Shown here piece after piece: positions 8,223 to 45,048 of a DNA stretch of 48,998 nucleotides. Position 1 is the stretch's first letter. Each line of letters opens with the position of its first letter. Location: assembly GCA_904420525.1 (NCBI GenBank), contig CAJFVT010000192.1, forward strand, positions 1 through 48,998. Reading direction: 5' to 3'. The translations under genes were made by a program, and so were the position numbers. Below the pieces are notes generated by a model, which searched no databases, was not told the origin of the DNA, and worked only from the letters and a program-made list of their open reading frames with translations. This DNA is from an uncultured Clostridia bacterium. GTDB lineage: Bacteria; Bacillota; Clostridia; UBA1381.

Positions 8223-9044
8223 ATGAAATTTATATGGGTCATACTGCTGTGTGCCGCGCTGTTTTTTGTATATCGTTACAGCCTTCTGCTTGGAATAATA
8301 CTTTCAGTCGTATTGGTGCTTTATGGGATATATCATTATCTCCCGCAGATCTACCGGTATAAGGGCAGAGTATATTTTAATGAAGGGAATTATGCGGCAG
8401 CGAAGCGTATGTTTAAAAAGGCTGTCGATACAGGACATGCTAAGGGCGATATACGGATGGAATATTCGTATATACTGCTCAGAACAGGCGATATTGAGGA
8501 AGCAGAGCAGATCGTAAATAACATGCTGTGCTATAAGATAAAGCCGGAGTACAGGGGGCGTGCGATCATACAGCGCTGTATGTGCTATTATAAGCGCGGT
8601 AATATTGATGAGGCTATAGAGGATGGTATGGAGCTGTTCAATGAAGGCTACAGAAGTATCATGCTCTATGGTATGCTTGGATTTTTTAAGATACTAAAGG
8701 ATCCCATGAGTCAGGAGACCTTCGATTTCTGTATGGAAGCATATGATTATGCCGATGACGACAGGGATATATGCGACAATTTGCTTATATGCTATTATAA
8801 CCGCGGAGAGTATGAGAAGGCAAAAGAGATATCAGACCAAATTCTTGAAAAAAGCCCGAAATTTGTCGAAGCATGGTATCATGGCGCACAGATAGATTAT
8901 AAGCTTGGAAATTACGCGGAAGCGCTTGAAAAGCTTGAGAAGATAGGTGAGTGCCACCGCTCGTTCATGACAACGATCCCGGAAAAGGATGTCGAGGCTT
9001 TAACAGAAGAAGTGAAGAAAAAGCTTTCCGATACTGATAAATAA
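8223..9044 (+). CDS. Membrane-anchored tetratricopeptide repeat protein
   Basis: Two short hydrophobic segments (about residues 2-20 and 22-42) anchor the protein; the rest is cytoplasmic helical repeats. TPR-like units are visible: YKGRVYFNEGNYAAAKRMFKK, MEYSYILLRTGDIEEAEQ, CYYKRGNIDEAIED, CYYNRGEYEKAKEI and HGAQIDYKLGNYAEALEK. Such proteins act as scaffolds for protein complexes; no partner can be named. The gene begins 20 bases after asnS with AAAGGAAG as ribosome binding site and probably belongs to the same transcript. Confidence 0.85.
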   Translation: MKFIWVILLCAALFFVYRYSLLLGIILSVVLVLYGIYHYLPQIYRYKGRVYFNEGNYAAAKRMFKKAVDTGHAKGDIRMEYSYILLRTGDIEEAEQIVNNMLCYKIKPEYRGRAIIQRCMCYYKRGNIDEAIEDGMELFNEGYRSIMLYGMLGFFKILKDPMSQETFDFCMEAYDYADDDRDICDNLLICYYNRGEYEKAKEISDQILEKSPKFVEAWYHGAQIDYKLGNYAEALEKLEKIGECHRSFMTTIPEKDVEALTEEVKKKLSDTDK

Positions 9045-9051
9045 TTTTTGG

Positions 9052-9080
9052 ATACGGCTGCGATCTGATTGCAGCCGTAT
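9052..9080 (+). terminator. Hairpin after the TPR gene (weak terminator)
   Basis: ATACGGCTGC (9052-9061) pairs perfectly with GCAGCCGTAT (9071-9080) around a 9-base loop. No T run follows on the + strand, so it may be a weak or Rho-assisted terminator or an mRNA-end stabiliser. Confidence 0.4.
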
Positions 9081-43184: not shown

Positions 43185-43213
43185 TTGACAGCGTGGTCTG
43201 ACAGTGCTATAAT
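43185..43213 (+). promoter_or_regulatory. Perfect-consensus SigA promoter of amtB-glnK
   Basis: TTGACA (43185-43190), 17-base spacer, TATAAT (43208-43213), with an extended -10 TGC. Such a promoter should fire strongly, so control is likely exerted after initiation, by the hairpin starting about 12 bases after the predicted transcription start. Confidence 0.9.
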
Positions 43214-43231
43214 GACCTTGTTGATAGAACA

Positions 43232-43275
43232 AAGGAGTTCGTGATGTTTATACATCGTGGACTCCTTATTTTTTT
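43232..43275 (+). promoter_or_regulatory. Leader attenuator (intrinsic terminator) of amtB-glnK
   Basis: The arms at 43232-43247 and 43252-43267 form a 16-bp stem (with G:U pairs) around TTAT, followed by A and seven T: a complete intrinsic terminator in the amtB leader. In Clostridia, leaders of nitrogen genes are often controlled by ANTAR RNA-binding antiterminators; I cannot see the usual pair of hexaloop hairpins, so the antitermination signal is unknown. Confidence 0.8.
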
Positions 43276-43354
43276 CGCTGTGAGCATTTACTGCTCTGCA
43301 GCGCTGGTAAGCTTATCGTCGCGCAGCGGCTCAACAAATTTATATTTGTTTTAG
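43244..43354 (+). CDS. Possible 36-residue leader peptide of amtB
   Basis: The ORF begins MFIHRGLLIFFAV, is hydrophobic in its first half and Ser-rich later, and ends at TAG inside the amtB ribosome binding site TAGGAGGAG. AAAGGAG (43231-43237) lies six bases before its ATG, and both that site and the first codons are in the attenuator stem. Translation would open the terminator and be coupled to amtB. It could also be a chance ORF; there is no homology evidence. Confidence 0.35.
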   Translation: MFIHRGLLIFFAVSIYCSAALVSLSSRSGSTNLYLF

Positions 43355-43367
43355 GAGGAGTTTTATT

Positions 43368-44615
43368 ATGATTGATACTGGCAATACAGGATTCGTACTG
43401 ATATGTGCGGCTTTGGTATTTTTCATGACACCAGGACTTTCGCTGTTTTACGGCGGTTTGGTAATGAGAAAAAATGTTATTAATACTATGATGTCATCGG
43501 TATTTCTGATAGGTGTGGCAATAGTATTATGGGTGCTGTTCGGTTATTCGCTCTCATTCAGCGGCAATATCGGAGGTGTGATCGGAAACCTTGATTGGTT
43601 CGGCATGAACGGAGTAGGCATGGAGCCGGGACCGTATGCTGATTCGATCCCCAATCTAGCATTTGCGTGCTTCCAGATGATGTTTGCGATAATCACGCCC
43701 GCTCTTATAACGGGAGCTACCGCAGGCAGAATGAAGTTTAAGGCTCAGTTCATATTCATGGTTTTATGGTCGTTCATCGTATACTATCCGATGGCGCATA
43801 TGGTATGGGGACAGGACGGTTTTCTTGGAACGGGCTTCCTTCATTCCGTAGACTTTGCAGGCGGTAATGTTGTACATATAAGCTCAGGTGTAAGCGCTCT
43901 CGTGCTTTGTATAATACTTGGCAAGAGGGAGGGATATGAAAGACAGTCATACAGAACCCACAATATTCCGATGGTCGCGTTCGGCGCGGCAGTGCTGCTG
44001 TTTGGATGGTTTGGATTTAATGCCGGAAGCGCACTTGCGGCGGACGGACTCGCAGCTCATGCGTTTATGACGACAGCTGCGTCATGCGGCGCTGCGATCG
44101 TTACATGGATGCTTATGGATGTTATCATATCGGGCAAGCCGACTCTTGTAGGCGCATCTACTGGTATGGTAGCAGGGCTTGTAGCCATTACACCGGGAGC
44201 AGGATTTGTTCCGGTATGGGCAGCGGTTATTATAGGCGCAGTTGTATCACCTCTCTGTTACATGATGATATCATTTGCTAAGAAGAGGTTCGGCTATGAT
44301 GACGCTCTCGACGCTTTCGGGTGCCACGGTATCGGAGGTATGTGGGGCGGTATAGCGACCGGTCTGTTTGGTCTCAGCTCTATAAACAGCGCTGCTGAAT
44401 GGGACGGACTTTTGTTCGGCGACTGGCACCTGTTCGTGGCACAGCTGCTCAGTATCGTAATAACGATAGCTGTCGCTGTTGTAGGTACGCTTATCTGTGT
44501 AGCTATAACAAGGATATTCACTCCGCTGAGAGTATCGCAGAGAGAAGAACGTGTTGGTCTGGATATTTCAGAGCATAATGAAACTGCATACCCGTCATTT
44601 AACGGTCTTGACTGA
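43368..44615 (+). CDS. amtB: Ammonium transporter
   Basis: Trimeric membrane channel of the Amt family that takes up ammonium when it is scarce. About eleven transmembrane helices; the pore twin histidines are His170 in NVVHISSGV and His320 in FGCHGIGGMWG. Length 415 residues is usual. It lacks a clear signal peptide; the first helix starts near residue 8. GGAGGAG (43354-43360) precedes the ATG. glnK follows 21 bases later. Expression is probably set by the leader attenuator. Confidence 0.96.
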   Translation: MIDTGNTGFVLICAALVFFMTPGLSLFYGGLVMRKNVINTMMSSVFLIGVAIVLWVLFGYSLSFSGNIGGVIGNLDWFGMNGVGMEPGPYADSIPNLAFACFQMMFAIITPALITGATAGRMKFKAQFIFMVLWSFIVYYPMAHMVWGQDGFLGTGFLHSVDFAGGNVVHISSGVSALVLCIILGKREGYERQSYRTHNIPMVAFGAAVLLFGWFGFNAGSALAADGLAAHAFMTTAASCGAAIVTWMLMDVIISGKPTLVGASTGMVAGLVAITPGAGFVPVWAAVIIGAVVSPLCYMMISFAKKRFGYDDALDAFGCHGIGGMWGGIATGLFGLSSINSAAEWDGLLFGDWHLFVAQLLSIVITIAVAVVGTLICVAITRIFTPLRVSQREERVGLDISEHNETAYPSFNGLD

Positions 44616-44636: not shown

Positions 44637-44990
44637 GTGATAAAGATAGAAGCGATAGTAAGGGAAGACAGATTTGAAGATGTAAAGCAGGCATTGCAGG
44701 ACATCAATGTTCACGGTATAACCGTATATCAGGTCATGGGCTGCGGTACTCAAAAAGGCTATACCGAGTACGTGCGCGGTCAGAAGGTGGATATAACTAT
44801 GCTGCCCAAGATCAAGTTTGAGATCGTCGTTTCCACAGAAGCGTGGGCCGAAAAAACGATGGATGCTATCCAGAAAGCGGCATACACAGGTATGCCCGGC
44901 GATGGAAAGATATTTGCATACAAGCTTGATAATGCTATGAGGATAAGAACAAGAGAAACAGGTCCGGAGGCTATCCAGCCGCGCGATTGA
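44637..44990 (+). CDS. glnK: PII nitrogen regulatory protein (GlnK type)
   Basis: Small trimeric signalling protein that binds ATP/ADP and 2-oxoglutarate and plugs or frees the partner AmtB. The 117-residue sequence aligns without gaps to E. coli GlnB through residue 58: GCGTQKGYTEYVRG of the T-loop, then LPKIKFEIVV; nucleotide-binding GMPGDGKIFAY is near residues 83-93. The residue at position 51, uridylylated Tyr in E. coli, is Val here, so GlnD-type modification is excluded at that site. Start is GTG with GGGGAGG nine bases upstream. It ends at a strong terminator. Confidence 0.94.
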   Translation: MIKIEAIVREDRFEDVKQALQDINVHGITVYQVMGCGTQKGYTEYVRGQKVDITMLPKIKFEIVVSTEAWAEKTMDAIQKAAYTGMPGDGKIFAYKLDNAMRIRTRETGPEAIQPRD

Positions 44991-45002: not shown

Positions 45003-45048
45003 AAAAGAACACTTCGGTGCTGATCCTGCGCCGAAGTGTTCTTTTGTT
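45003..45048 (+). terminator. Intrinsic terminator of amtB-glnK
   Basis: GAACACTTCGG (45007-45017) pairs perfectly with CCGAAGTGTTC (45031-45041), extended by A4 and T4 outside, with TTTTGTT as the tail. Confidence 0.9.

Follow-up and report, generated by a model that had tools for sequence, protein, structure and literature searches.

We found that the leader of amtB in the DNA of an uncultured Clostridia bacterium is very probably an ANTAR attenuator, with a small hexaloop hairpin as the antiterminator that an ANTAR protein would hold in place. The basis for this reading is a pair of mutually exclusive structures, covariation, the distribution of the element, a single ANTAR gene behind glnA and the recurrence of the element at other nitrogen genes; binding, the direction of control, the start site and the signal are the parts of it that we infer. 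The window, by which we mean the whole stretch of 48,998 nucleotides that was analysed, carries the following features.

43185 to 43213, plus strand: sigma-70-type promoter with extended -10, TTGACA-17-TATAAT; the same promoter stands at a fixed distance from the hairpin in relatives.
43227 to 43240, plus strand: putative antiterminator, ANTAR-type hexaloop hairpin GAAC-AAAGGA-GUUC; assigned from covariation, nascent folding and control terminators.
43232 to 43267, plus strand: intrinsic terminator stem-loop of 16 bp with a 4-nt loop; U tract at 43269-43275.
43241 to 43354, plus strand: open reading frame (ORF) of the earlier annotation, judged spurious; present, with frame and start not kept in relatives.
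43276 to 43331, plus strand: clade-specific conserved structured segment lying between the terminator and the ribosome binding site, with a hairpin CGCUG..CAGCG, the palindromic GRTAAGCTTATC and a stem GUCGC/GCGGC.
43353 to 43360, plus strand: amtB ribosome binding site, AGGAGGAG, assigned from its sequence.
43368 to 44615, plus strand: amtB, ammonium transporter of 415 aa and first regulated gene (Pfam PF00909, E 3.5e-117; TIGR00836).
44637 to 44990, plus strand: glnK, PII protein of 117 aa with a GTG start and second gene of the amtB-glnK unit (Pfam PF00543, E 8e-26).

The promoter comprises TTGACA at 43185-43190, a 17-nt spacer and TATAAT at 43208-43213, with the TG of the extended -10 at 43205-43206, and is the sole 12/12 promoter match within 6 kb, bearing out the perfect promoter described in a previous sequence-only reading of this DNA. 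The 16-bp terminator stem that the same reading placed about 12 bases after the start was likewise recovered, with 16 pairs at 43232-43267 that begin 12 nt past an RNA start at ~43220, a position predicted by the usual +7 rule. RNA from 43220 to 43276 folds with -21.5 kcal/mol (z = -5.9), and 0 of 200 shuffled sequences folded equally well. The amtB genes of this subfamily mostly have a TG-extended -10 promoter with a terminator right behind it (16 genus-mates; 80 loci from species-level genomes). Dozens of related species have this same arrangement ahead of amtB, and the promoter with its immediate terminator is therefore not a chance occurrence. Directly 3' of glnK, a strong 18-bp terminator (45003-45045) closes the amtB-glnK unit.

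The hexaloop of the window occupies 43231-43236, with A at loop position 1 (A1; 43231) and G at position 4 (G4; 43234), and is closed by a stem of at least 3 bp. Nucleotides 43232-43240 are common to the hexaloop hairpin and the terminator, and the two structures are mutually exclusive. When folding of the growing transcript was modelled, the hexaloop hairpin, at -3 kcal/mol, was predicted until at least nt 41, and the terminator was favoured (-20.8 kcal/mol) once the last 7 nt of its arm were present; by this model, leader RNA without help should terminate. The suggestion of the sequence-only reading that an attenuator controls readthrough into amtB-glnK is borne out by this pair of structures, which recurs across related leaders, and we judge its ANTAR lead to be correct, given a hexaloop with A1 and G4 that excludes the terminator and an ANTAR gene behind glnA.

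In the mechanism that we propose, the amtB-glnK transcript would begin at ~43220 from a strong promoter, and the hairpin GAAC-AAAGGA-GUUC would be the first structure to emerge from RNA polymerase. When active, presumably in nitrogen shortage, the ANTAR protein encoded downstream of glnA would grip the loop through a contact with G4; the gripped hairpin would stay folded and block the overlapping 5' arm of the terminator, and the polymerase would then pass the U tract and make amtB-glnK. With the ANTAR protein inactive, the terminator (-21 kcal/mol) would displace the weak hairpin (-3 kcal/mol), and transcription would abort after ~55 nt. The protein may be active under nitrogen limitation and held by glutamine synthetase (GS) or PII when nitrogen is plentiful; in Bacillus, TnrA and GlnR are held by GS.

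Among related species, the conserved core of the amtB leaders is ACAAnGnnGU at the base of the terminator, and not the ORF. An automatic scan for stems of at least 3 bp that overlap a folded terminator and carry a loop with R at position 1 and G at position 4 found the hexaloop hairpin in 72/83 amtB leaders. Manual curation brought this to 74/83: one match (L053) was spurious and removed, and visual inspection added L007 as well as L089 and L092, each of which has one A-C mismatch in L089 and L092. The hairpins vary (GAC-AAAGGC-GUC, GGAC-AAUGGC-GUCC, UCAAGC-AAGGAC-GUUUGA and others), and the loop is always six bases. Among the leaders that have no such hairpin, four come from genomes with no ANTAR gene (L026, L027, L046 and L080), two belong to operon-internal copies of amtB (L098 and L100) and three have a bulged stem (L053, L058 and L083). 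These last three, from Ruminococcus/Oscillospiraceae, have the bulged hexaloop stem at the terminator upstream of amtB, and a second hexaloop-like hairpin (GGAC-AAAGGC-GTTC and similar) lies 3' of that terminator. A1 was present in 65/72 amtB and 26/26 glnA leaders, with G1 in the remainder; the frequencies of R1 and G4 are not independent evidence, as both are part of the detection rule, and A2 and the closing C-G pair lay outside it.

Covariation supports the stem. Across 50 distinct amtB hairpins, 35 cells were changed on both sides versus 13.4 in shuffles, and across 74 distinct amtB and glnA hairpins there were 64 double-changed cells versus 17.0 ± 9.2 (0/500 shuffles). In the latter set 93% of stem cells were paired, against at most ~50% in any slid register, and stem pairs 2 and 3 alternate among A-U, G-C, U-A and G-U. 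The strict hexaloop, a C followed by AANG, sat at the base of 55/93 terminators upstream of amtB versus 2/1182 other terminators of the same loci.

The inverted repeat beside the promoter has a constant 6-nt spacing in all species, as would also be expected if the GAAC-N6-GTTC dyad were a DNA operator to which a repressor binds at the start site, with the terminator incidental. We consider this very unlikely. G-T (G-U) partners are tolerated at each of the three variable stem pairs (11, 6 and 10 cells), which speaks against an operator because such partners break a DNA dyad and not an RNA helix. The spacer is moreover conserved on one strand only (AANG), the stem sequences vary widely, and an operator gives no reason to expect the fixed-register overlap with the terminator. 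A LexA-like box, GAAC..GTTC, was rejected as a candidate, the spacing being 6 and not 4 and other species having GAC/GUC or TGC/GCA.

We regard control of the terminator by a metabolite riboswitch or another small RNA as exceedingly improbable. A structured leader before a nitrogen gene, and in this clade the extra conserved structured segment 3' of the terminator, would suit such control, but the leader matched no Rfam family at gathering score (the hit to snR83, a eukaryotic family, at E 0.016 was far below it), and the conserved part, a 14-nt hairpin, is smaller than an aptamer would have to be. It further counts against such control that this hairpin precedes several distinct nitrogen operons where a genome has an ANTAR gene. 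A plasmid search with the leader sequence gave no match.

The sequence-only reading had also described a 36-codon ORF, with its start in the 5' arm of the stem and its TAG in the amtB ribosome binding site, and had proposed that its translation melts the terminator and couples to amtB. The ORF is present as described, running from GTG 43241 or ATG 43244 to TAG 43352-43354 (37/36 codons), with its start within the terminator 5' arm and its TAG overlapping the amtB Shine-Dalgarno sequence. ORFs of at least 30 aa are common by chance, 92 of them overlapping the last 10 kb of the window. Several observations favour leader-peptide attenuation or translational coupling: AAAGGAG is well spaced from the start codon, the TAG falls within the amtB ribosome binding site, and in five close genomes, counting that of the window, a frame of at least 36 codons stays open from the same place, three of these frames ending 11-13 nt before amtB. 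We nonetheless hold this explanation to be extremely unlikely. The apparent ribosome binding site, AAAGGAG, is the conserved ANTAR hexaloop AAAGGA plus the next G; outside the clade the hexaloop (AAAGRC GUC) is unlike any ribosome binding site, and no ORF is common to these leaders. The hexaloop and the ATG lie 137, 134, 132, 133 and 140 nt apart in the nearest relatives, and these distances do not all differ by multiples of 3. Reading from the ORF position gives 37 codons in the window and 36, 38, 34 and 22 in L017, L019, L021 and L020, and in L021/L020 the ORF ends 39 or 88 nt upstream of amtB. The frame is open into amtB, out of frame, in L016 and fused in frame with amtB in L024, and when the window and eight relatives were compared, L018 and L025 had no start codon at this position. 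The conserved frame and start of a leader-peptide attenuator are thus missing. Asking of related amtB leaders whether frame or stem is kept, as the sequence-only reading had proposed, gave a clear answer: the stem and the hexaloop hairpin covary and the frame does not, and the frame-breaking indels between close relatives that it had named as counter-evidence were found, 1-2 nt long and located in hairpin loops. With the start lost or the frame shifted in close relatives, melting and coupling by translation are unsupported.

The ANTAR attenuator requires an ANTAR protein, and the genome encodes exactly one (PF03861, E 5e-13; 48.2 bits versus a cut-off of 27.3). Its gene lies directly downstream of glnA in a glnA-ANTAR operon (contig C87; L119 6962-7483, minus strand). 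The 174-aa protein is predicted to consist of a receiver-like domain and an ANTAR three-helix bundle, and the solved structures nearest to the predicted model include Rv1626, RNA-bound EutV and AmiR. Across 24 family proteins, QAHRFxQKRSMD is kept in nearly all, and the equivalent of EutV Met172, the plug, is invariant. At the position of EutV Tyr164, the residue that stacks on G4, most have His and some have Tyr or Phe; the protein of this genome has His. At the phospho-acceptor position all 24 have Gly53 in place of the receiver Asp. As the receiver-like domain has no phosphate-accepting aspartate, the protein probably receives its signal through contact with another protein or a ligand, such as GS or PII, and not through phosphorylation.

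The ANTAR gene and the amtB leader co-occur, with the leader in 39-42/42 genomes that have an ANTAR gene and 3/7 that have none (Fisher p = 0.005; 0.0002 with bulged forms counted). In three draft genomes, searched in contigs of at least 3 kb, a hexaloop leader precedes amtB and no ANTAR protein was found (G091, leader L042; G103, leader L064; G107, leader L074), and these three count against the ANTAR attenuator. Loop position 1 is G instead of A in L064 and L074, and G103 and G107 have further matches of the leader model despite having no detectable ANTAR protein.

A strict IUPAC pattern (ACAA..) was too narrow, missing even the window and glnA in its own genome, and was replaced by a covariance model trained on no leaders other than those of amtB and glnA. 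The model matched the window at 43226-43272 with 41.3 bits, by construction, as the window is a seed sequence. The glnA gene of this genome is preceded by the same element (G000:C87:8973-9010, E 0.0015, this leader also being a seed), and the element was present in 26/41 regions upstream of the glnA-ANTAR unit (40 others and that of this genome). In relatives, the model picked out leaders of glnN (GSIII), of a class-II glutamine amidotransferase (GOGAT-like) gene and of PII, and also of a second type of amtB, an amidase/carbon-nitrogen hydrolase, OCD-family enzymes, an AsnC-type regulator and transporters. It gave 0-2 matches in five genomes that have no ANTAR gene, against 1-12 in the others. 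In the glnN leaders L219, L220, L222, L227, L234, L237 and L247 of relatives, this hexaloop-terminator has AAGGGT, or a sequence close to it, as its loop, and the promoter lies ~30 nt further upstream. The glnA leader of this genome (L119 ~9015-9060, minus strand) exceeds that of most species in length. An additional hairpin, GAUCGGC-AGUUCA-GCUGAUC, stands upstream of its hexaloop and has no G4 in the loop; glnA leaders of close relatives have a hairpin at the same place with a loop that is not conserved.

Published ANTAR antiterminators have two hexaloops, both called obligatory; deletion of the first (P1) abolished eutP induction (PMC3369931) and EutV antitermination (PMC3369931, PMC8934654). 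In most of the leaders described here, the hexaloop stem starts 6-13 nt after the -10 hexamer, which for a +7 start leaves 0-7 nt of RNA before it (~7 nt in the window, from the predicted start). As a hexaloop hairpin needs 12 nt, most leaders have only one. In 100/121 leaders of amtB, glnA and other genes the stem lies at most 18 nt from the -10, with at most ~12 nt of RNA before the hairpin, and 19 longer leaders of the 121 have no consistent second hexaloop (P1) upstream. The element is kept out of the dual-hexaloop family because P1, a defining feature, is missing; it would work like an ANTAR antiterminator and is best called a single-hexaloop, 5'-terminal variant of one. The missing P1, together with His for Tyr at the G4-stacking position, counts against the ANTAR attenuator. 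In the crystal structure, the ANTAR dimer holds just one loop at a time, and a single hexaloop is the smallest site that it binds (PMC8934654); the window hairpin fits this minimal motif (Walshe 2022) in sequence and predicted structure.

Known systems share much of this design. EutV/EutW of Enterococcus faecalis (PMC3369931, PMC8934654) use an A1/G4 hexaloop on a 3-4 bp stem that excludes an overlapping intrinsic terminator, and an ANTAR protein with a receiver-like domain, at nitrogen genes; they have two hexaloops, whereas here there is one, at the 5' end of the RNA, and the protein differs from EutV in its pseudo-receiver without the phospho-acceptor Asp, in its His for the G4-stacking Tyr and in having no evident kinase partner. 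AmiR of Pseudomonas aeruginosa and NasR/NasT are alike in their ANTAR output, pseudo-receiver or ligand-sensing control and amidase/nitrate (nitrogen) genes, but their leaders have two hairpins, and their AmiC/NasS partners or nitrate domain were not seen here. In the Ramesh 2012 survey, genes for PII, ammonium transporters and GS, the class of gene targeted here too, have dual-hairpin ANTAR targets upstream; the survey demanded the dual hairpin, and the present leaders would fail that model. We found no report of single-hexaloop, 5'-terminal ANTAR leaders in the literature searched; work on Clostridial glnA-ANTAR, single stem-loops and Lachnospiraceae targets gave only Ramesh 2012, actinobacterial surveys and Walshe 2022.

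We think it likely that the nitrogen regulon of a large group of gut Clostridia is controlled by single-hexaloop ANTAR antiterminators a few nucleotides from the RNA 5' end, that the recruitment hairpin, regarded as obligatory, is dispensable when the antiterminator leaves the polymerase first, and that the regulator is a kinase-free pseudo-receiver from the glutamine synthetase operon. Walshe 2022 (PMC8934654) left open why two hexaloops were needed and whether a single one can act in antitermination, and these leaders offer a natural, widespread and easily assayed test. If they work, ANTAR target searches based on dual hairpins have overlooked a major nitrogen regulon of gut bacteria that are abundant (Blautia, Roseburia, Anaerobutyricum and their relatives), and one protein with an element of 14 nt would make a very compact genetic switch.

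Within the clade-specific segment at 43276-43331, the stretch GRTAAGCTTATCGTCGCRCRGCG, a 12-nt palindrome plus a stem GTCGC/GCGRC, is nearly invariant in six genomes, and in five of these it is preceded by a covarying hairpin CGCTG..CAGCG. The exact stretch occurs as one copy each in three of 70 family genomes searched, always before amtB.
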